Assembly: GCA_000827205.1 (NCBI GenBank)
Contig: KN832554.1
Span: 2,776,690-2,840,689, forward strand
Direction: 5' to 3'
DNA: 64,000 bases
DNA from: Plicaturopsis crispa FD-325 SS-3
Lineage: Eukaryota; Basidiomycota; Agaricomycetes; Amylocorticiales; Amylocorticiaceae
The notes below the pieces were generated by a model. It did no database searches, was not told the origin of the DNA, and was given only the letters and a program-made list of their open reading frames with translations. This document shows, one piece after another, positions 19,858 through 62,151 of this stretch (the stretch's first letter is position 1; every line of letters starts with the position of its first letter). The position numbers were made by a program, and so were the translations under genes.

Positions 19858-22429
19858 ATGACCGTCATCTCAGCTGGCCCAGAGCCCTTCGTTCAGAAGT
19901 CGCCAGTGAAACCTGTTCATGTCAACGGCGTGAACGGCGTGCCCAACGGTGTCGCAGTCAACGGTTCAGCACCGCGAACAACGAGTGCGACCCCATCGAC
20001 CCTTTTATCAACGTTCATTAGAGATCATAAGGAACTCGACAGCTACAAGTGAGTCTTGCGGTACGCGGCGGGCAAAAACGCAATACTGATACTTACGCAG
20101 GAACGGCAAAGCTATTGTCGTCGATGGCCATACACTATCTATCCCGGCTGTCACTGCGGCTGCACGATACAACGCCACTGTTGAGCTGGACAGCTCTTCT
20201 TCTGTGCAAACACGTGTCTCTAAGAGTAGAAACGTCATCGCCACTAAAGTACTTAACGGCACAAGTGTTTATGGCGTGAGTACTGGCTTTGGAGGGAGTG
20301 GTAAGCGTCATTTTGAATGCGATAATCACAGTCTGTAACTTACCAACCGTATGATATAGCGGATACTCGTACCGATAATACACTAGCGCTTGGAAACGCC
20401 TTGCTACAGCACCAACACAGTGGAATCCTACCTTCTTCGACCTCAAAGCCTCTCGATGCTCTTCCACTTCTGGACCCCATTGCGTCCACGAGTATGCCTG
20501 AATCCTGGGTACGCGGCGCGATCCTCGTGCGCATGAACTCGCTTATTCGTGGTCATTCTGGTGTGCGTTGGGAGCTTATTGAGAAGATGGCCGACCTTCT
20601 CCGTGCGAATATCACGCCTATGGTGCCTCTCCGCGGTAGCATATCTGCCTCAGGAGGTAATTCATATCCGCGCTTTTGTTTTTAGACTTCGAGCGCTCAC
20701 AATAGTTTTGTCTCTAGATCTTTCGCCTTTGTCGTACATTGCGGGTACCCTTGTGGGAAATCCTTCCATTCGAGTTTTCGACGGCCCCGCAGCATTTGGT
20801 GCTCGCCAAGTTGTATCTTCGCGCACTGCGCTGTCTGCTCATGGGATAGAGCCTATTCCTCTCCAGTCCAAGGAGCACCTCGGTATCCTGAACGGCACTG
20901 CCTTTTCTGCCTCTGTGGCCGCCCTCGCGTTGAACGACGCGGTGCACTTGGCCCTTGTGGCTCAAGTGTGTACTGCTATGGGCACAGAAGCACTTGCAGG
21001 GACGCGGGGCTCCTACGATCCCTTCATCCACGACACTGCACGTCCCCATCCTGGCCAGGTATGCTCCAAACGTCTCATATTCACAGACAATATCTGATTC
21101 GTGTGAATAGATTGAAGCAGCGGGTAACATCTGGCAGCTCCTCAACGGCAGCAAGTTCGCCGAGACCCACGAGGAGGAAGTCTCCATCGAAGAAGACCAA
21201 GGTACTCTGCGGCAGGATCGGTACCCGTTGCGCACGGCGCCCCAGTTTTTAGGCCCTCAGATTGAAGACCTGCTTAGTGCTCTCGCTACTATCACCCTCG
21301 AGTGCAACTCCACTACGGACAACCCGCTCATCGACGGCGAGACGGGTAATGTTCACCACGGTGGAAACTTTCAGGCGATGGCTGTGACTAACGCAATGGA
21401 GAAAACTCGTCTCTCGTTGCACCATATTGGAAAGCTGCTTTTCGCGCAGTGCACGGAGCTCGTGAACCCAACCATGAACCGCGGACTGCCACCTTCGCTC
21501 GCTGCCACCGACCCCTCCTTGAACTATCACGCGAAGGGCGTCGACATCGCCACCGCTGCGTATGTTGGTGAGCTCGGGTACCTTGCCAACCCCGTCTCCA
21601 CGCACATCCAGTCTGCAGAAATGCACAATCAGGCTGTCAAGTAAGTCCTCTGTGCACTCTCTAAGTCGCCTCGCTCATCTTCATTCTCTGTAGCTCTCTG
21701 GCCCTGATTTCTGCTCGTGCGACCATCAACTCTTTGGAGGTCCTCTCGCTCTTGACTGCATCGTATCTCTACGTCCTGTGCCAATCGCTCGATCTTCGTG
21801 CCCTTCAGGCCGAATTGAACGCCGGCCTCGCTGCCATCGCCACCGAGGAGCTCGCGCGAAGCTTCGGCTCTGGACTCTCTGAATCCGATCATGAATACCT
21901 CACCCGCGCGGTGCTGAAGGGCATGCAGGAGACCCTCGAGAACACGAGCACTATGGATGCTACGGACCGCATGAACAAGGTTGCCGCATCCAGCACAACG
22001 ACCATTCTAGACTTCTTCACCGGTCCCGGGTTCACCGACGCATCATCTGCTGGCGCCGCACTGACGGCCATCCCGACCTTCCGCGCCCAGGTTGCGGGGC
22101 GGGCGACGGCTCTACTCGAAGGTCTTCGGCGGGACTACTTGTCGGGCGCGAAGGGCGCTGCGCCCGCGAGCGGTTACCTGAACAAGACGCGTCCTGTGTA
22201 CGAATTCGTGCGGGTCACATTGGGCGTGCGTATGCACGGGTCTGAGAACTTGTCTGGCTTCGCCAACGGTCTCGGCGAGGACGATGTTACGATCGGCCAG
22301 AACATCTCTCTCATCCACGAGGTAAGCTACTCATTTGCGCGCTTTGTTTTCTGTGTATTAATTGCATTTGATTTTCAGGCAATGCGGGATGGGAAAATGC
22401 AATCTGTGGTCGTTGGACTATTCCAGTAG
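19858..22429 (+). CDS. PAL: phenylalanine ammonia-lyase
   Basis: Deaminates L-phenylalanine (and in many fungi tyrosine) to trans-cinnamate and ammonia, a cytosolic homotetramer. The MIO cofactor triad Ala-Ser-Gly lies in [19 protein letters not shown]. Other family marks are [69 protein letters not shown] and [20 protein letters not shown]. Seven exons, introns 20049-20100, 20301-20359, 20657-20717, 21059-21110, 21641-21693 and 22322-22378, all GT-AG and in frame. Total of about 730 residues fits basidiomycete PAL. The N-terminal 40 residues are a low-complexity VNG-rich tail. Intron 3 falls one base after the ASG triad. Confidence 0.97.
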
Positions 22430-26638: not shown

Positions 26639-29600
26639 TCACGCCCGGACGCCCACGAACTCCCTCCACGATCGCACCTCAGAGGGGATGCGGCCTTCGG
26701 TATAGTTCCTCAGACCGCCCTCTGGTATCTTTTTAGCAAGACTTTCCACAAACAGCTGTGCCGTCCGTGCATTGTTGAGCAGCGGCAACCCGAAGTCTAC
26801 GGCATTCCTAGATAGGCGATTCAGTCAGCAAGCTACCACTTCAGCACACCGAGGAGATCACGTACCTTCGGGCGACGTAGTCCTCATCCGTGAAGCCCGT
26901 TCCCCGGGATTTCGCGAGGTTGAACACGCATTGAATGTCGTGTTCGTCAAAGACCTCGCGCAGCATACGCTTATCCTTGGTCGGGAAGAATATACGCTTC
27001 GCCCCTACGTACGGGAGTCCGTTCAAGAAATCTTCGACCACAGGGGAGGAGCAGTAAAGTTTGAATCCCAGGTCCATTAAGCCTTTGGCGATGGTAGCCA
27101 TTTCTGGCTGGGAAATGTCACCGCCAATGAGAACGCCGGACCCTGCACGAGGCGGCTTGAAGCCTGTTGTAGAGAGTAATGCGGCCCAGTAGGCTTCGTA
27201 GATGTCCTTCCCAAAGCTGGCCACTTCACCAGTACTTGCCATTTCTACATACATCATTAGCAAATGAAGCTGCATTCCCAAGCATGAATTGTAGAAAAAC
27301 ACTCACCGACGCCAAGGAAAGGGTCAGCACCGCCTAGTCGTGTCCATGAGAACTGTGCGACCTTTATGGAAGTGTAGTCGCGCTCCTGGGCCATGATATC
27401 CACGGGTGCCGGTACGTTCTCGCCAACGATAGCAGCTGTTGCCGTGTCGATGAAGTTGTGCGCAAGGACTTTCGACACAAAGGGGAACGAGCGCGAGGCA
27501 CGCAAGTTACATTCGATGACCTTGAGCTGCGCTGGCTCACCGTCTTCAGCCGGTTTGCGTATAATCTGCATGTTGAACGGCCCAGATATTTCGAAAGCTA
27601 CGGCCACCTTCTCTGCGATCTCCTTCAGGCGCGCCATGTCGCTTTTATCCAGCGAAAACGGCGGGAGCACGAGGGTTGCGTCACCGGAATGCACACCGGC
27701 GTTCTCGACGTGCTCGGATACAGCGTGTACGAGAAGTTGCCCGTTGTGAGCCACAGCGTCGACATCGATCTCTTGCGCATTGTCAATGAATTTGGTGATA
27801 ACGACGGGGTGGAGTGGCGATACAGATGCGGCAGCTGAGAGATTGTACTCAAGCGCCGCCTCCTCGTACACAACGTTCATCGCGGCTCCCGAAAGAACAT
27901 ACGAAGGTCGGATCAAGACCGGATAACTATTCTCGTGCACTTGGCGTCAGTAAGGGGCAGAGAAACAGTTATCGAGAAATTACTTGCCTGACTTTGTTGG
28001 CAAATGCCTTCGCAGCGTCCAGAGTGGTGACCTCGGTCCATTCCGGTTGGTCGACGCCGATGCTATCAAGAACCGAGGAAAATTTATGGCGATCTTCCGC
28101 TGTGTCGATTTTCTCGGGATCGGTGCCGAGAACATTGACACCCGTGTTCTTGAGTCGAAGTGCGATGTTCTGGGGCAATTGGCCTGTAAAGTATTGAGAT
28201 GAGGTGACGGGCATAACGCGGTGCATGGTGACATACCTCCGACGCTGACAATGACACCCTGGGCTTGCTCGAGCTCGTAGATATCCATGACACGTTCGTA
28301 GCCAAGCTCTTCGAAGTACAGCCTATCCGCCTCGTCGAAATCGGTGGACACAGTTTCCGGGTTGTAGTTGATCATAATCGTACGTCTGCCCATATCCTTG
28401 AGCTTCCGCGCGCAGGTGACCGCACACCAATCGAACTCCACGCTGCTGCCGATACGGTACACGCCGCTGCCGAGGACCATCGTGCCGTGCTCGTCGAATT
28501 CGACGTCGTGTTCCGATGCGTTGTAGGTGGTGTAAAGGTAGTTCGTGTGGGCGGGGTACTCGGCGGCGAGAGTGTCAATGCGCTTTACGAACGGAGTGAT
28601 GCCGAGGGACTTTCGGTGGGCACGCACTACGTCTTCGGTCGAGGAGACGAGGTCGGCGATCTGGATGTCTGCGAATCCCATGCGCTTGGCGCGCTGCATG
28701 AGGTCGAAGTCAACATTCTCGATGGTTCCGGCGGCTTTGAGGGCGTGGTGCGTCTGGACGATGTTGTCGATTTTGTACAGGAACCACTGGGCAGTACTGT
28801 CAATGCTAAATTCACTGTTTCGTCGAACGATGACTTACCTTGTCGATCTTGGTCAGGTCATGCACCTGATCCACAGTGTAGTTCTTGTTGTACATCGCAT
28901 ATGCAATGGCGAACAGGCGCATGTCGGTAGGGTTTTGCAATGCGCCATCGAGGTCCTCGGGGCTAATGTACGCCTCGAAACCCTTCCACCGAGGGTCGAC
29001 CTGACGGATTGCTTTCTGCAAACTCTCTTCGAACGTGCGCCCAATAGCCATAACCTCACCAACGCTCTTCATCGCCGAACCTACCTTGCGGTCTACCTGG
29101 GTCGAGAATTTGGCAAGATCCCATTTCGGAATTTTCGTGACGATGTAGTCCAATGACGGCTCGAAACACGCGGTTGTTGTTTTTGTCACAGCGTTTGGGA
29201 GTTCGGGAAGGGTGTGGCCGAGAGCGATTTTGGCTGCCGTGTATGCAAGCGGGTATCCTGTTGCCTTGGACGCGAGCGCACTAGAACGACTCAACCTACA
29301 AACGCACGTGAGCTAAATGTACAGTATAACGGGAAAACCACCACTGATTTTTCTTACCGTGCATTGACCTCGATGACGCAGTACTCCCGCGACGTTGGGT
29401 TCAGCGCGTACTGGATGTTGCACTCGCCGACAACGCCGAGGTGGCGAATAACCTTTATAGCGGCGCTACGCAGCATGTGGTATTCATCATCGGGAAGTGT
29501 CTGTGATGGCGCGACGACGATCGAGTCTCCAGTGTGTGTGCCGAGCGGGTCGAAGTTCTCCATGTTGCAGCAGATGATGGTGTTCTGTAGCGCGCGTTCA

Positions 29601-32004: not shown

Positions 32005-33097
32005 ATGCTGCGACTTTCCAGGACACTTACCCTAACACCGTTGCGCCAGCATCTATCAAATACTACTCGGTACAAGCAGTCGCGTCTGTCTTTCCGAACC
32101 ATCAACAAGATGGCCGCTCCTCGTCCACTCAACTTTTACGCTGGACCGTTGGTCTGGGTTGACTGCGAAATGACTGGTCTGAACCCCCGGAAGGACAAAA
32201 TTCTCGAAATCGCGGTTTTGATCACGAACGGGAACCTTGAACTCGTAGATGAGGGCATAGAGTTTGTCATTCGGACCGATAAATCAGCCCTCGACGGGTA
32301 AGCAAGCACGCGACCGCCTGTGCGTCTGGCTGTGGTGCTAACGCGGGCAAAGTTTAGCATGGATCAGTGGTGCACGAACCAGCACGGAAGAGTGCGTCCT
32401 ACATTGTTCTGACCGCCGCGTGTGCGGCGCTGAATGTCGGGTTACTGCTGTATAGTCTGGCCTGACGCAGGCGTGCTTGGATTCGCCGTACACAACCTCG
32501 TACGTTTCGCAGGCGGTGCTGGCATACATAAAGAAGTGGATACCAGACCAGCGCGTTGGCGTCCTAGCCGGAAACTCCGTGCATGCGGACAGGTCGTTCT
32601 TGCAAGAAGAGATGCCAGAGGTTATCGACTGGCTTCATTACCGGTGTTTTTTCGCGCAGCCATTTTGTGCCTAGATGTGATCACTAATTTCTAGCGCCTA
32701 ATTTCTAGCATAGTCGGTACGCTGCTTCCATGTACATCCAGAAAGTTGAGAATGCTGACATTCCTTACTATAGACGTGTCTTCAATCAAGGCGAGTGATG
32801 GTGATACCTGCGTGAGATCCAACAATGGAATTGACATGGCTTTAGGAATTGTGCCGCCGGTGGTACCCGATGCGCCTTCCCCCCAGAGAGAATGGAGTAG
32901 AGAGCAGCCACCGGCGAGTTGTTTTGTCATTCCATCATTTCGTCGATGATAACAGATCGAACTTGCAGCGCTCTGGACGATATACAAGGGTCTATAAGAG
33001 GTATGCCCCGCGGTCTATGTTGATATCTTGAGCTAAACTACTTGTACCGGTAGAACTGCAGTGGTACCGTGACAATATCTTCATCCCGCCGCATTGA
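32005..33097 (+). CDS. REX2: oligoribonuclease (REX2 / Orn, DEDDh exonuclease)
   Basis: Degrades 2-5 nt RNAs from the 3' end. Eight exons (32005-32297, 32358-32391, 32456-32643, 32709-32716, 32774-32790, 32846-32913, 32969-33000, 33054-33097) sum to 684 nt = 227 residues. DEDDh motifs: LVWVDCEMTGLNP (D, E), AGNSVHADRSFLQEEMP (D), then ASHR-type block ESSHRALDDIQGSI (H, D), ending WYRDNIF. Residues 1-35 (MLRLSRTLTLTPLRQH...) are basic and acid-free, a likely mitochondrial signal; the second ATG at 32110 starts a cytosol-sized form. Exons 4 and 5 are only 8 and 17 nt and together give HYRIVDVSSIKELCRRW, matching the family. Two introns appear to use GC donors (GCGAGT at 32791 and 32914). Confidence 0.94.
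32709..32716 (+). other. 8-nt microexon of REX2
   Basis: CATAGTCG is flanked by TTCTAG and GTACGC. It completes the Arg codon of HYR, codes Ile-Val and starts the Asp codon, giving RIVDVSSIK, the family sequence at this place. Without it the frame is broken. Confidence 0.82.
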
Positions 33098-46089: not shown

Positions 46090-47492
46090 TCAATACACGG
46101 CCCTCAGCCCTAACGCTTCCCTTCTGGACTTTGAATTGGGATCAAAGTATGGCCGTTCTCCGATAGAGATGACACGATCACCCCTTCGTGAGCCGATGGT
46201 GTCGAATGTAGCGGAATGATAGCTCGACCTGCGTATGCAAAATTATCAGTTCGCCATGAACAAAAGAGACTGAAATACCCACCGGTTATCCCATATGGCA
46301 ATATCGTTTGTCCTCCACTATACAGCGACGTACACATTCAGTGACTCGTTGTCGCACTAGGCCAGAATGGACTCACGCTAAACCTAACGGCGATGTCATG
46401 ATTTTGCGCCTGCATTTTGAACAGGTACGCCAACAGCAGATCCGACTCGTCGCGCGTGACCTCGTTAATGCGCTTGGTGAATAGGTGGCTGATGTACACG
46501 CTCTTCCAGCCGGTGACAGGGTTCGTGCGCACGAGGGGATGCGTCGCGGTGAGATCGCCACCCACGTTCTCCGGGTGCCCCCGAGGGAGGTCCGCGCGCA
46601 CACTGAAGCCCTGCAGAGCGGCGACCTTATGCAAGAACTGCGCATCGTGCTTTGCTGTGAGGCGCTCGAGGAAAGCGCGGAAAGGCGGAGAGAGGCGGTC
46701 ATAGCTGTGCGTGTTCTTTTGAGCGCGTGCGGAGAAGCAAATGAGAGATACGTACAGCTCGTAGCCGCTGAACCAGAGGGTATCACCGCCTTCGTCTGGC
46801 ACTTTGACAAGCTTCAAAACCCCATAATCCGTACCGTAGCGCTCGTATGTAACACTATCATCTCCTATCAGCATCGACAAAACTGGATGCTGGGGGAGGC
46901 ACACTTACTCAGAATGGATGTTATTCGAGTGTATCTTCGTGACGTCGTCGCCGATATACTCCTCGACAGGCTTCGCAACGATCTCGTTCGCCACGATAAG
47001 GACCTGGTCACCGAGCTCGCTCGTCGGGGGTGTGATCGGGTGGATGTGCAGGCCAGATTCCGCAGGCTTGCCGGAGAGGGCGCCTAGCTTTTGGCCAAGA
47101 ATCTGAAGTAGGCATATGTGCGTTTAGCGTGCGACTGTGTACTGGTACTTAGTACTGCAATGCTTACCTTCTGGTCATCAATATTGAGATCCTGGTTCCG
47201 GAAAAAGACCACATTCCGTTCGGCAACTGCAGGTTAACGTCATAAGCAATCGTGCACGTCCGCTGCCTTTGCGATGCCTCAAGTTAACAGTGTCGCGCTT
47301 ACCGAGAATTGCAAGGTCGCGGACCTTCGCGTCGTCCTTGAGCAATTCGCTCAGCTGTGCATCCCTAAACTCCGTGCCTATATTCGTCGTGACGTTGAAT
47401 CGACCATACTGGTCCAACGCTGTGCCCCGCGTGAGCGGCTTGGGGGCGAATGGCGGTGTCGACGGCTCGTACACGGTGGTTGGGACAGGCAT
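46090..47492 (-). CDS. TauD/TfdA-family 2-oxoglutarate dioxygenase (copy 1)
   Basis: Fe(II)/2-oxoglutarate dioxygenase of the taurine/alkylsulfonate type (yeast JLP1 relatives), which would free sulfite from a sulfonate or hydroxylate a related acid. Start MPVPTTVYEPSTPP at 47492. Visible parts: LDQYGRFNVTTNIGTEF, AERNVVFFRNQDLNID, then KIHSNNIHSDVTYERYG, where the iron motif HSD is completed across an intron. Next are GGDTLWFSGYELYDRLSP, GHPENVGGDLTATHPLVRTN, TGWKSVYISHLFTKRI, and WDNRSSYHSATFD with the distal iron-binding His, also built across an intron. The C terminus has a 2-oxoglutarate-binding type Arg region ending REALGLRAVY. Introns sit at the same places as in copy 2 at 52218-53583. 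Confidence 0.92.
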
Positions 47493-52217: not shown

Positions 52218-53583
52218 TCAATACACGCTTCTGAGACCGAGAGCTTCTCGTCGCGATTTCGAGGCCGGATCGAAGTACGGTCGCTCGCCAATGGAGAGTA
52301 CTCGGTTTCCTTTTCTCGAGCCCACAGCGTCGAAAGTCGCAGAGTGGTAGGATGATCTTAACGCGACATTTCAGAAAGTATACAAAAGGAAAGGACGGAC
52401 TGTCGACGAACCTGTTGTCCCATATAGCAATATCGTCCGTCTCCCACTGAAGATAGATGTTAGGCAACAGCTCAAGATATTAAGATGCAAACTAAAGACG
52501 TACTCTAAATCGCACCGCGAGATCGTGGTTTTCTGCCTGTACTTTGAACAGGTACTCCAGTATTATATCGGACTCGTCGCGTGTGACGCCGTTGATGCGT
52601 TTCGTGAAGTTGTGACTGATGAAGACGCTCTTCCAGCCAGTGATGGGATTCGTGCGGATGAGTGGGTGAGTCGCTTCGAGCTCGCCGCCGACGTTTTCCG
52701 GGTGCCCACGCGGGATGTGCTCCCGCACTTTGAAGCCTTGCGCGTTGGCCACGGTATGAAAAAATTTGGCGTCATGCTGTGCGGTAAGACCTTCGAGGAA
52801 GGTCCGGAACTCAGGCGAGAGGCGGTCGTAACTAGTTTGGCAGGAGTCATTCAGTGTTCGTTCGCGAGGGACAATTGTAGCAGGAGCATACACTTCGTAG
52901 CCGCTGAACCAGAGAGTGTCTCCCCCCTCTTCTGGGACCTTCACGAGTTTGAGAATGGCATAGTCAGAACCGTATTGTTCGTACGTCACGCTGTGAAGTC
53001 GTGCGTGGTTAGCAAAACGCAGAACAAACGATGCGGCGCGATGCATACTCTGAATGAATATTTTGTGAATGAAATTTGGATGGGTCACCAGATGTGTGCT
53101 CGGCAATTGGCTTAGCAATCACGTCGCTGGCGACAAGCAAAACCTGGTCTCCAAGCTCGCTATCTTCCGTTGTGTACGGGTGGACGTGCAGACCAGATTC
53201 CGCAGGTTTGCCATTCAGAGCACCCAGCTGTTGGCACAGAGTCTGTGAAGTGCCTATTTGTTATTGAACAAAGGAAAACAATGAGTCGCAGAAATGTACC
53301 TTTTGCCGCTCAATGTCGAGATCCTGGTTGCGAAAAAATACAACGTTGCGTTGAGACACTGTTTGAATAGTTAACCTCATGCCCCGTAGAAGAAGTAGAC
53401 CACGTAACGCACCCAAAACTGCGAGGTCGCGAATCTTGTCTTCATCCTTCGCGATCTCAGAAAGCTGTACGCCCCTGCTAAACTCTGTACCGATGTTGGT
53501 AGTGACGTTGAATCGCCCGTACTCGTCTAACGACGTGCCGAGCACGCGTGGCTTAGGATATTGTTGGGAGAGGAGTGCTGGCA
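52218..53583 (-). CDS. TauD/TfdA-family 2-oxoglutarate dioxygenase (copy 2)
   Basis: Paralog of the gene at 46090-47492, same strand, same exon pattern. Start MPALLSQQYPKPRVLGTSL at 53583. Shared blocks: LDEYGRFNVTTNIGTEFSRG, SQRNVVFFRNQDLDIERQK, QLGALNGKPAESGLHVHPYT, VTYEQYGSDYAILKLVKVPE, EGGDTLWFSGYEVYDRLSPE, GHPENVGGELEATHPLIRTN, TGWKSVFISHNFTKRINGVT, RFRWETDDIAIWDNRSSYHS. The iron ligands (HSD and distal His in YHSATFD) are present after splicing. It ends REALGLRSVY at stop 52218-52220. Third-position divergence from copy 1 is high, so the duplication is old. The likely role is sulfonate or related acid oxidation; two kept copies suggest different substrates. Confidence 0.92.
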
Positions 53584-56313: not shown

Positions 56314-57528
56314 CTACTTTAGTTCAGGGACAATGTCCTTGCCCGCCCCAACCAGCAAGTAATCACGCAAGTTGGTCAGCGCACGTACTTCCATCGTACG
56401 CTCCGTATCTAGTGTGTCGGTACCCATGTGCGGAAGGAGGACAACCTGCGGGAACTCGATTAGACGCGGATTCACTTTTGGCTCCTCGGGGAAGACATCC
56501 AATCCGACGTTCGATAGCTGCCACGACATCAGAGCTGGATAACGACCATGGTGCAAGGAAAACTTACGTGGCCGTCCTCGAGCGCTCTAATCATCGCGTC
56601 CTCGTCAATCACCTTTCCGCGAGCGGTGTTGATGATGATCGAGCCCTTCTTCAACGTCCGGATCTCCTTTTCGCCCACTATCCCAATAGTGTCCTTATTC
56701 AGCGGTACATGCACGCTCAACACGTCGGCCTCCTTCAAGAATTCTTCTAAGCGATCCGGGCCATAGTATTCGCACCACTCTGGTGCGAGTGCGTTCGGAT
56801 TCCGGTTGAGGTAGATAATACGCATGGGGAACGCGTGGGCGTAGTGCGCAAGGCGTAATCCGATCCCGCCAAGTCCTAATATCGCGAGCGTGCGCTGCGT
56901 GGCGTCGTGTGCAACGGTCGCAATTTTGGCAGGCTTCCATTGGAGAGCACGCAGTGACCGCTCGGCCGCGGAGAAGTGTCGTAGGGTCGCGATGAGGAGA
57001 TACAGTGCCGTGGTAGCTGTTGCCTCATCGACAGTGCCAGGGGTATTGGAGACCATTATGCCTACGGTGCGAAGAGCCTCAGATTGTGAAGCCAATGGCT
57101 GACGGGAGGATAGCCAGACCTTTTTCTTTGCACGCGAGGACATCGATTTGATCGTAGCCTGCACCGTTGTGCGCAATCCATTTAACACTCGATGCAAGAG
57201 CTCCGATGAGCTCCTTGTCGAAGACGCCAATGCGGTTTCTGGACACATTGCGCCGGTATATGCCCACAATCCCCGCATATTTTCCCCCAGGCTGCAGCTC
57301 AGCCACGAACTCCTCGCGAGAGTTTGAGTCTAAACGCTGTTCCACGTCCGCTTGAGATACGCTGGTAACAAGGCAATGCAGAGCTGCTCACAATGACTTC
57401 CGCGATACCACCTAGTAGCTCTTTGACTTCATCGTGCGCGTAATCAATGTCACCTAGACGTGAGTTAGTCTATGTACACTGCTGAGAGAACTCGTTGACG
57501 CACCACATAAGAGAATGCGAGGTGCCAT
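56314..57528 (-). CDS. D-2-hydroxyacid dehydrogenase (glyoxylate reductase-like, copy 1)
   Basis: NAD(P)H-dependent reductase of 2-oxo acids such as glyoxylate or hydroxypyruvate, cytosolic or mitochondrial. Start MAPRILLC at 57528; splicing gives GDIDYAHDEVKELLGG, IRLDSNSREEFVAELQPGGK, WIAHNGAGYDQIDVLACKEK, GIMVSNTPGTVDEATATTAL. Nucleotide motif LAILGLGGIGLRLAHYAHAF, catalytic Arg in INTARGKVIDEDAM, Glu in DVFPEEPKVNP and His in LLPHMGTDT. It ends VPELK. Five exons. The paralog at 60926-62151 has the same exons and about nine of ten residues the same in the central block, but lies on the opposite strand. Confidence 0.93.
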
Positions 57529-57636: not shown

Positions 57637-59539
57637 TCATTTACTTAGCTGGTGTCGGAGATGGAGCGGATCAGATAGCCACGCGAGCGGCTGCCATCCC
57701 GAACCGGTAATGAAGTGTGCGTGCGACGACAGGAAATCCATTTTGAAGAGCGCGTACTGGTCTGTAGATACAATGCATACACTCTACATATTAGCCCTCA
57801 ATCAACTACACAGCAGCATATCAGTATGATTACGCGCCGCAAGAAATAAAGTCATACCTGCGCAGCAACTCTTGAAACGCCCTTTATTTTCTTGCATTCC
57901 TCCTGCAGATTGTGTCCTTTTGTCGTGTTCAGTAGCCCAGCGTTGTAGTAGCGCTTCAAGTATCTGGGTGTACGGATGAGTATGAGGTGAGGCGGGGCAT
58001 TCTGTATCGTACCGCAAACAAGTCTCTTCTTTGAAGTCGGCGTAGATCTTGCGATTGCTTTTTCGCTGTAGCCGGTGTAACATCATGAGCGGATACACAG
58101 CGATCGTGCTGAGCTGTACAGACTGACCTCCAGTTTCCTCGCCGCTTCCTCGTATGCGTGATTCTGGTGCACTAGGAAATGATCCCCCAGGACGTAGAAC
58201 GACATGCCCGAGATGTACATCTCAAACAAGCATGCTGCTTTGTTTCCGCCGTAGCCCACAAATCGTTCATCGCACCTGCATGATTATGCCGCGTGTCATT
58301 GACGTCTAGACTTATAAAAACATCGAGGCAGAGACTCACCATGGCGGACCATCCTTTTTAAAAATAACATACGGTTCATATGCAGATTGATACTGTGTGA
58401 CCTTGTATACTTCGCCCGGCTGTGTGGTATAATATCGCGGGTAGTCCGTACTGTTATGACCCAGCGCCCAGGACGAGTGAAACATGCCCACACGTCCCTC
58501 CTCAACGAGGGCGATCAGCGACTGAAGCATTGGGGATGAGCACAGACACAATGAAACCCGCGGATCGGCCGACCTTTTTGTCCGTGGGGAACGTCCTCTG
58601 GTCGCTTCCCTCCTTCTTCTTCACATACTCGAAAGCAGGTATCACGAGCGCGCCCTCGCCGTCGGCCATGACGTGGCGCGCCTCCGCGCTTGCGCGCACC
58701 GCGGCTCGGAAGTCCGTGCAGACCGCGAAGTCCACGTCGAGCATCATGACCCAGCGCGTGCGGGCGAAGAGTCGTGCGGCGTTGCGCCAGGTGTTGAACT
58801 GGCGGTCGAACGCGTCGATGACGAGATGCACGTCGACGTAGGTGGTCATATGTGGGGTTGAGATGTACAGAGAGTGCAGCGCAGTGAGTAGCTCAGCGAG
58901 CTCGGCCGTCGTGTTGTGCACATGAATTGTCACCGATATTGGCCCTTGATCGGTAAGGTTTAGTCTAAGAGTGAGGCAGAGGCAGAGAGCTTGATTACCT
59001 CGATAGCGTTTGACTAGCTGCTTGAGAACAGAGAAACGGTTGCTTGTGACCAGCGTCGTAAGAGTGACGTCGTCCTCGTCTATCATACCAGTAGCGCGGT
59101 AAAAGAAAGGTACGATCTTGCTTGGTTTCATGGATTGTGCGAAAGCCTTGGAGAGAAATGTCTCTTCCGCCATCGATACCGTGTTGTTGCCAGAAGAGGG
59201 CGTCCAGGATATGCCTGCTTTCGACATTTGCGGCATCCAAACATCTTGCATCGTAGCCGCAGGAGAAGGCACAAAAGAAGCTCCAGGTAGACGCGGAAAT
59301 TCAAGCCAGGACAATCGCGTTGCCGTTGTTGGCCGTGGTGATTCCTGACTGGGTGAGAAGAAGGCATAACAGAGACGGAGAGGAGATACGACCACGTAGT
59401 TCGTCGTGTATAGTAGAGCAGCAGTGAGGTATAGCCCGAGACATATCTGAAGTAACCGAACGATTCGTGCCAGGGCCGCCATTCCAACGCAATCCAGAGG
59501 AACAGGCTTTCGAAAGAAGCACGCGTCAGACGCGTCCAA
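57637..59539 (-). CDS. type II membrane glycosyltransferase, GT49 (LARGE/B4GAT1-like)
   Basis: Golgi-type glycosyltransferase of Pfam Glyco_transf_49. A short cytosolic part (or start at ATG 59482, MAALARIVR) precedes one signal anchor (LLQICLGLYLTAALLY). The catalytic domain shows DDVTLTTLVTSNRFSVLKQL, then GPISVTIHVHNTTAEL after splicing, NTWRNAARLFARTRWVMMLD, DVDFAVCTDFRAA (the DxD metal site), FHSSWALGHNSTDYPRYY, CDERFVGYGGNKAACLFEMY and GMSFYVLGDHFLVHQNHAYE. All are strong GT49 signatures. About six exons. The C terminus after a last splice is DQYALFKMDFLSSHAHFITG and stops at 57637-57639. Acceptor sugar unknown; in animals the family makes glucuronyl/xylosyl chains. It lies inside the inverted dehydrogenase pair. 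Confidence 0.88.
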
Positions 59540-59888
59540 GATGCTCCCAGTAGCGCCAGGGATATATGTGAATCTTGTCCCAAAGGTATGACGCGTGTTT
59601 CAGATCGAGACGTAGGCAAGACGCGACGGCACGATACACGGGCGGCCAATCCTGAGCGGTCAAAAGAGCAGTAGGCCAAGTCTCGGCAGTGAAGTTAGCC
59701 TTGATGCACAGTGCGCATGTGTCTTGTACAAGTGGTATTCTCTTGGCTTTCTCTTGTGTTCGATTGTCCCGGGTTAAGACACTTGTATCCGGTTCCAGAG
59801 GGTAGTTGCGAACAAGTCCGTCGATGGTTACGGCCCTACGCAATATCTCGGGAAGTTCTAGGGACTTTAGCTGATGACAGGCGTTCAT
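59526..59888 (-). CDS. small hypothetical open frame (120 codons), doubtful
   Basis: An uninterrupted frame starting MNACHQLKSLELPEILRRAV with normal codon balance and no motif known to me. It overlaps the first 14 nt of the glycosyltransferase frame if that starts at 59539, but not if it starts at 59482. It could be a separate small gene, an upstream ORF, or the remnant of a first exon. Confidence 0.25.
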   Translation of the reverse strand: MNACHQLKSLELPEILRRAVTIDGLVRNYPLEPDTSVLTRDNRTQEKAKRIPLVQDTCALCIKANFTAETWPTALLTAQDWPPVYRAVASCLRLDLKHASYLWDKIHIYPWRYWEHLGRV

Positions 59889-60925: not shown

Positions 60926-62151
60926 ATGGCTCCCCGCATTCTCATCTGTGGTGCGTTTTGATCGGGCGAAGGCGATTGCAGAGTCCTTGACGAACATACA
61001 TGCACTTACAGGCGATATCGTGTGGGCCCACGACGAGGTCAAAGAACTGCTGGGAGATCTTGCAGAAGTTGTGGTACGCCCCTTGGTCTATCTTGAGAAA
61101 GTGTACCACTCACTTCCTACTCATCAGCGCTTGGACTCGACGTCTCGTGCCGATTTTCTCGCAAATCTCAAACTAGGCGGTAAATATGCTGGCATCGTTG
61201 GCGTCTACAGACACAACACATCCGCGGATCGTATCGGGCTATTCGACAAGGAAATCATCGCAGCACTTGCACCGAGCGTAAAGTGGATTGCGCACAATGG
61301 TGCAGGATACGACCAGATCGACGTCCTTGAGTGCAAGGCTAAAGGTGAGCCCCAGCTCGCTTTTTTTATTTGCACCTGTGCGGCCAATTGAGCCAATTTG
61401 TAGGCATCAAGGTTTCGAACACTCCCGGTGCCGTTGACGACGCGACCGCGACAACCGCGCTCTACCTCCTCATCTCCACACTGAGGCATTTCTCTGCCGG
61501 TGAGCGATCCCTGCGCGCGCTCCAGTGGAAGCCCGCCAAAATCGCGACCGTTGCACACGACGCCGCACACCGCACGCTCGCGATCTTCGGACTCGGCGGC
61601 ATTGGCCTGCGTCTCGCACACTACGCGCACGCGTTCCCTATGCGTGTAATCTATCACAACCGCAATCCGAACGTTCTGGCACCGGAATGGTGTGAGTACT
61701 ACGGCCCGGGGCGCCTGGAGGAATTCTTGAAGGAGGCCGACGTTTTGAGTGTGCATGTCCCGCTGAAGGAGAATACGGTGGGAATTGTTGGCGAGAAGGA
61801 GATTCGCGCGTTGAAGAAGGGCTCGATTATCATTAACACCGCTCGCGGAAAAGTGATTGACGAGGACGCGATGATTCGGGCACTCGAGGACGGCCACGTG
61901 AGTATTCCTTATGCCCTGTACAGTTTACAACCCTGATACCCTCGCAGCTATCGAACGTCGGACTGGATGTTTTCCCCGAGGAGCCAAAAGTGAACCCGCG
62001 TCTGCTCGAGTTCCCGCAACTTGTGCTCCTCCCTCACATGGGCACGGAGAACCAGGATGCGCAACGCCTCATGGAAGTACGCGCGCTCACGAACTTGCGG
62101 GACTTCCTCAAAGATGGTGCAGGAAAGGACTTGGTACCCGAGCTCAAGTGA
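60926..62151 (+). CDS. D-2-hydroxyacid dehydrogenase (glyoxylate reductase-like, copy 2)
   Basis: Same enzyme type as copy 1 at 56314-57528. Start MAPRILIC at 60926; exon 1 ends in TGTG before GTGCGT, as in copy 1. Splicing gives GDIVWAHDEVKELLGDLAEV, VRLDSTSRADFLANLKLGGK, WIAHNGAGYDQIDVLECKAK, GIKVSNTPGAVDDATATTAL. The intron at about 61072-61126 is inferred from comparison with copy 1 and the family, because the unspliced frame is also open. Motifs LAIFGLGGIGLRLAHYAHAF, INTARGKVIDEDAM, DVFPEEPKVNPRLLEFP and LLPHMGTENQ are intact; the end is DGAGKDLVPELK. Function as for copy 1; whether the two differ in substrate cannot be told. Confidence 0.93.

Follow-up and report, generated by a model that had tools for sequence, protein, structure and literature searches.

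We find that REX2, the oligoribonuclease gene of Plicaturopsis crispa, is best explained as a single-copy gene of eight exons in which the conserved RIVDVSSIK motif contains two microexons in direct succession, one of 8 nt and one of 17 nt, a reading to which we give a probability of about 0.92. The gene was analysed within a stretch of 64,000 nucleotides, referred to here as the window. The model with two consecutive microexons is the best one both by protein conservation and by splice-site scores derived from introns of this genome, and we established its coordinates, frame, family fit and splice-site ranks.

From its translation, the gene is predicted to be the oligoribonuclease of the fungus (REX2/REXO2/Orn), a DEDDh 3′-5′ exoribonuclease. 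The protein scores 221.6 bits against NCBIfam PRK05359 (equivalog cut-off 106), covering positions 8-181 of the 189 in the profile, and 108.7 bits against Pfam RNase_T (cut-off 24). There are 24 distinct PDB sequences that match it at E ≤ 0.001, the best being 9f7m at 3.5e-54, and the REXO2 entries, which we take to be the human protein, match at about 170-174 bits. As the preliminary description of this DNA had claimed, the family motifs are in frame, with DCEM at residue 53, HADRSF at 152 and HRALDD at 202; these positions give the protein D53, E55, D154, H202 and D207, presumably the DEDDh catalytic set. The family and its motifs are common to REXO2, bacterial Orn and the fungal REX2; however, the relatives that we fetched read as single open frames, whereas the fungal gene is modelled with eight exons. 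Searching the genome (33.2 Mb in 49 contigs) for further copies yielded neither a second REX2 nor an intronless retrocopy, as all 5 matches fall in the REX2 locus itself.

We rebuilt and translated the gene model and found the previously proposed coordinates and sizes to be correct to the base, with 8 exons on the plus strand totalling 684 nt, or 227 amino acids and a stop. Exon 1 (32005..32297, 293 nt) begins with the ATG at 32005 and is followed by intron 1 (32298..32357, 60 nt, GT-AG), whose acceptor lies at the bottom of the training-set scores. Exon 2 (32358..32391, 34 nt) is supported by spliced alignments, and intron 2 (32392..32455, 64 nt, GT-AG) separates it from exon 3 (32456..32643, 188 nt), which is likewise supported by alignment and closes with the HY codons plus two of the three bases for R. 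Intron 3 (32644..32708, GT-AG) has the weak donor GTGTTT. Microexon 4 (32709..32716, 8 nt) then supplies the last base of R, the codons for I and V, and the first base of D; after intron 4 (32717..32773, GT-AG), microexon 5 (32774..32790, 17 nt) carries the remainder of D followed by V, S, S, I and K. Intron 5 (32791..32845) is GC-AG (AAG/GCGAGT), as is intron 6 (32914..32968, 55 nt, CCG/GCGAGT). Between them lies exon 6 (32846..32913, 68 nt), running from ELCRRWYP to SHR, and downstream is exon 7 (32969..33000, 32 nt), encoding ALDDIQGSIR; spliced alignments support both. Intron 7 (33001..33053, 53 nt, GT-AG) precedes exon 8 (33054..33097, 44 nt), which encodes ELQWYRDNIFIPPH and the stop, and into which alignments extend as far as 33082-33091. 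The RIVDVSSIK stretch would therefore be split by three short introns, and their lengths of 65, 57 and 55 nt agree with the preliminary description. If the model holds, the 8-nt and 17-nt exons are both microexons by the definition of an internal exon of ≤27 nt, a threshold reported in PMC8378409. Translation of the variants showed that dropping the 8-nt exon, the 17-nt exon or both shifts the frame.

REX2 has two in-frame starts, the ATG at 32005 and another at 32110. The first 36 residues, at the end of which the second ATG stands, contain six arginines and two lysines but neither D nor E. This Arg-rich, acid-free leader is probably a mitochondrial presequence, and together with the second ATG it suggests that mitochondrial and cytosolic forms of the enzyme may be produced.

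One line of evidence for the two microexons is conservation of the protein. Relatives were collected as the best 80 of 225 from prokaryotic genomes, together with 1 viral-contig relative among 8 pattern matches, and a profile was built from 75 of these 81. With this profile we scored an enumeration of GT/GC-AG splicings between the HY and ELCRRW codons, allowing ≤3 introns of ≥40 nt each. The microexon product, RIVDVSSIK, was the top of 297 open in-frame products at 28.2 bits, and none of 3000 shuffles of the region reached its score. The pattern HYR..D[VI][ST] is uninserted in 81/81 fetched relatives (80 bacterial genomes and 1 viral contig, none of them fungal), 11 of which read LHYRMVDVSSIKELCRRW. 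With REXO2 as the query and GC donors permitted, a spliced aligner consistently returned the microexons; shuffled sequence matched the real alignment score in 2/500 cases with this query and in 1/500 with 9f7m. Against the NCBIfam profile, the 221.6 bits of the microexon model compare with 213.3 for a model with a 40-nt exon, 208.3 when intron 5 is restricted to a GT donor and 206.8 when intron 4 is kept. The product begun at the second ATG with eight residues left out scores 189.5 bits.

It had been proposed that the gene must use the 8-nt and 17-nt exons. They do belong to the best model, but "must" is too strong, since two models without these microexons also keep the frame, so that the frame alone does not compel them. 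One of the two joins 32643 to a different acceptor (before 32751), and both insert residues at the site that is uninserted in 81/81 relatives.

The first of these frame-keeping models has no microexons. A single 107-nt intron (32644-32750) leads to a 40-nt exon (32751-32790), giving HYR-MLTFLT-IDVSSIK, an in-frame product with a 5-residue insertion. We consider it very unlikely that the gene is spliced in this way, although several results point toward it: the product is open and second in the enumeration (24.1 vs 28.2 bits), it reaches 213.3 bits against NCBIfam, and the spliced aligner picked it with the 81-sequence profile in 8/8 settings. It was also picked with the 9f7m query at a flat acceptor cost, but not when acceptors were weighted. 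When only the inside of the 107-nt intron was shuffled, 38/5000 trials yielded a product that outscored the microexon model or fell short of it by at most 3 bits. Against these results stands the insertion itself, which is seen in 0/81 relatives, as well as the splice signals described below. The aligner also bears on the expectation that standard gene finders would miss both microexons and truncate or skip the region. At flat cost it did miss them, but rather than truncating or skipping the region it selected the in-frame 40-nt exon, so the likelier annotation error would be a 5-residue insertion, and the 40-nt-exon model is a likely automatic annotation of REX2.

Splice signals were learnt from reference introns of the same genome, obtained by aligning E. 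coli proteins to nine loci: four HSP70, glutamate synthase, SAM synthetase, two transketolase-like genes and the large subunit of CPSase, the last of which lies in the window. HSP70-like matches on contigs C3, C4, C6 and C20 and at C1:1727604, and a transketolase match on C6, were left out. The reference aligner took GT and GC donors at equal cost, and its acceptor costs differ only mildly. It gave 69 introns, including 2 duplicates where glutamate synthase loci overlap. A well-aligned set of 50 distinct introns was retained on the grounds that both flanks score well and the length is 40-130 nt; the 17 distinct introns dropped include two ending in GAG, two ending in AAG and the GC intron of CPSase. 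The 50 well-aligned introns are 48-88 nt long, a range that includes all of the REX2 introns (53-65 nt), and their acceptors are 30 CAG and 20 TAG with no GAG. The 48 with GT donors were used to train a position-weight model.

By this model the acceptor at 32773, before the 17-nt exon, is the top-scoring acceptor of REX2, with a rank of 0.96 among real acceptors and a score matched by 0/1087 exonic AG decoys. The acceptor at 32708 and the donor at 32717 rank 0.46 and 0.31. The donor at 32644 is weak (rank 0.06, with 7% of 1036 exonic GT scoring equally high), and it is common to the microexon model and both of its main rivals. Elsewhere in the gene, the acceptors at 32357 (rank 0.00) and 32845 (rank 0.06) are poor. 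Branch-like YTRAY sites are found 21, 15 and 11 nt before the ends of introns 3, 4 and 5, those of introns 3 and 4 being CTAAT and CTGAC, and none was found in intron 6. Among 61 reference introns of 40-70 nt, 35 have a YTRAY 6-45 nt before the end and 26 do not.

These signals argue against the 107-nt intron, which is longer than any of the 50 well-aligned introns. The GAG acceptor of the 40-nt exon has a score of -2.9, lower than that of any of the 48 real acceptors, and 60% of decoys score as high; as every training intron ends in CAG or TAG, the position-weight model cannot favour GAG. GAG ends none of the 50 well-aligned introns and is rare but present in less certain sets (2/69, both with a poorly aligned flank, 2/107, and 8 or 4 of 94). 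The last 45 nt of the 107-nt intron contain no YTRAY, which is weak evidence because 26 of the 61 reference introns and REX2 intron 6 also lack one. Taken with the insertion, we regard the 40-nt-exon model as disfavoured. The counts out of 107 and 94 come from motif-based searches, in which GT was enriched. For 94 GT donors with a coding score of ≥3, the best-coding acceptors were CAG (44), TAG (29), AAG (13) and GAG (8), and the first AG gave CAG (51), TAG (32), AAG (7) and GAG (4); a stricter motif gave 107 acceptors, of which 56 were CAG, 40 TAG, 9 AAG and 2 GAG. An ab initio approach based on coding scores gave 0 candidates in its first pass, and in a second pass GT was not enriched over other dinucleotides.

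In the other frame-keeping model, intron 4 is coding. An 82-nt exon (32709-32790) would then separate V from D by 19 inserted residues, with introns 3 and 5 the only real introns here. Intron 4 can be kept in frame because its 57 nt are divisible by 3 and free of stops, and translation gives 246 amino acids with the normal C-terminus; introns that are stop-free and divisible by 3 make up 9.2% of fungal GT-AG introns as reported in PMC7072748. Nevertheless, the product scores lower against NCBIfam (206.8 vs 221.6 bits), removal of intron 4 restores the family spacing exactly, and the intron has an ordinary donor, the branch-like CTGAC and the best acceptor of the gene. This makes it extremely unlikely that intron 4 is coding sequence.

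At the end of intron 3, CTAATTTCTAGC occurs twice in tandem (32684-32709), giving AGs that end at 32694 and 32708, are spaced by 14 nt and have similar acceptor scores in the position-weight model. Splicing to the AG at 32694 would yield a product of just 173 amino acids by translation. Measured from the second AG, branch-like sites are found 21 and 7 nt upstream, and the first AG is 7 nt past the more distant of them. Branch-to-AG spacing considerations favour the second AG over the first, because the first lies so close behind the more distant branch-like site. The tandem acceptors and intron 4 raise the idea that the microexon cluster also acts as a dosage or isoform switch, in which retention of intron 4 would add a 19-residue loop to the core motif and use of the first tandem AG would lead to a near-immediate stop. 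Such a switch would modulate the enzyme responsible for removing the shortest RNAs, though we consider it quite improbable. A regulated-switch microexon leaves the frame open both when it is included and when it is skipped, and the REX2 microexons do not.

Two of the seven REX2 introns, numbers 5 and 6, have GC at their start, a feature absent from the preliminary description. Their donors are otherwise near consensus, with ranks of 0.98 and 0.92 when the C is read as T, and both introns qualify as GC-AG. Two of seven is unusual, since the fungal average for GC-AG is 1.0% according to PMC7072748, and we counted it against the microexon model. Alternatively, both could be GT-AG introns whose donors lie further downstream, at 32812 for intron 5 (34 nt) and at 32926 for intron 6 (43 nt), so that the protein would gain residues. 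Both GT starts are in frame and the donor at 32812 is ordinary (rank 0.27), but the donor at 32926 ranks 0.02, and introns of 34 and 43 nt would fall below the 48-nt minimum of the well-aligned set. In the spliced aligner, GT-only models score 37-50 half-bits lower. The GT alternatives would also put extra residues inside SIKELCRRW or HRALDD, the one at 32812 adding the seven residues that reduce the NCBIfam score to 208.3 bits. We find the GT-only alternative very doubtful.

Outside REX2, we found no clear genome-wide excess of GC donors. The stricter motif count gave 20 candidates, where eight control dinucleotides averaged 13.75. Two well-aligned reference introns were called GC by the aligner, but as each has a nearby in-frame GT solution they were not counted as GC. 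The CPSase large-subunit gene that adjoins REX2 on the minus strand (aligned from 30367 to 27057, 8 exons) contains a probable GC-AG intron at 27927-27987 on that strand (CAG/GCAAGT, 61 nt), of which the upstream flank is weakly aligned.

The weak donor at 32644, the two GC donors and the poor acceptors of introns 1 and 5 could alternatively mean that the locus is a decaying copy, with odd splice sites arising from lost constraint. This explanation is barely credible for a gene that is the sole copy found in the genome, whose coding frame is intact and whose motifs are present with D53, E55, D154, H202 and D207.

Microexons are also found in other genes of this genome. The nine reference loci contain 58 internal exons, of which seven are ≤19 nt, and we tested their support by shuffling the surroundings 200 times each. 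Four are well supported: a 15-nt exon of HSP70 (locus L113, contig C19), matched by 1/200 shuffles, and a 19-nt exon of HSP70 (L115, C7), a 16-nt transketolase-like exon (L128, C8) and a 15-nt transketolase-like exon (L132, C1), each matched by 0/200. For the stretches searched, the top PDB alignments (heat shock cognate 71 kDa protein, SSB1 and transketolase) are ungapped across these four. Two further exons, of 12 nt (7/200 shuffles) and 6 nt (24/200), are tentative. The remaining candidate, of 8 nt and in a transketolase, was at chance level (94/200) and was rejected.

Very small exons have been described in other basidiomycetes. According to PMC1184071, almost a third of the P450ome of Phanerochaete chrysosporium, a white-rot basidiomycete, carries exons of 2-10 codons, and these small exons are accompanied by frequent introns of 45-55 bp, much as in REX2. 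An 8-nt exon of its CYP5141A1 is reported in PMC12940212 to lie within a highly conserved motif, the same placement as in REX2. P450 genes are another family, however, and the consecutive pair of microexons is a feature of REX2. For Laccaria bicolor, the authors of PMC2897884 describe exons coding for <10 amino acids as common among basidiomycetes and difficult to annotate; theirs is a transcript-based survey, whereas the REX2 model comes from genomic sequence. The single-nucleotide exon of Fusarium CYP621A (PMC12940212) resembles the REX2 microexons in restoring the frame, in lying within a conserved motif and in having been found via protein motifs, but it is a 1-nt exon of a P450 confirmed by RNA reads, while the REX2 model is known from DNA alone. 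Xlr2 of Trichoderma virens (PMC11121469) provides another fungal microexon, in which regulated inclusion alters the protein; in contrast to this switch, skipping a REX2 microexon shifts the frame, and regulation is not indicated. Going by titles and abstract openings, none of the papers found on introns of fungal oligoribonucleases deals with such microexons, and in the literature on microexons of Agaricomycetes the match found concerns NOD-like receptors. With similar tiny exons in other housekeeping genes of this genome and known ones in basidiomycetes, the REX2 microexons are probably real but ordinary.

The REX2 introns are short and each has its own donor and acceptor, so they could be recognised across the intron (intron definition), in which case the tiny exon itself would need no recognition. 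Those around the microexons would probably be removed one by one, since the factors of the 3′ and 5′ splice sites would not fit simultaneously on an exon of 8 nt. Splicing of the microexons is most likely constitutive: because skipping either or both shifts the frame, inclusion would be obligatory and leave no regulated choice. The case opens no new mechanism. It offers a concrete and checkable example of a highly conserved motif of a single-copy gene divided over two microexons, and of a quiet annotation error, in which an in-frame decoy acceptor produces a plausible, probably false 5-residue insertion with no obvious break. The well-supported 15-19-nt exons, present in 4 of the 9 other conserved loci, suggest that microexon-aware annotation matters across the genome.

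The window contains several other frames, which were named by eye. From the ORF list, we noted phenylalanine/histidine ammonia-lyase-like frames in several exons at 20537-22429 (+) and two very similar D-2-hydroxyacid dehydrogenase-like frames on opposite strands, at 56529-57329 (-) and 61349-61936 (+), with a long glycosyltransferase-like frame at 58502-59599 (-) between them. Two similar TauD-like dioxygenase frames, at 46338-46904 (-) and 52492-53118 (-), lie about 6 kb apart.
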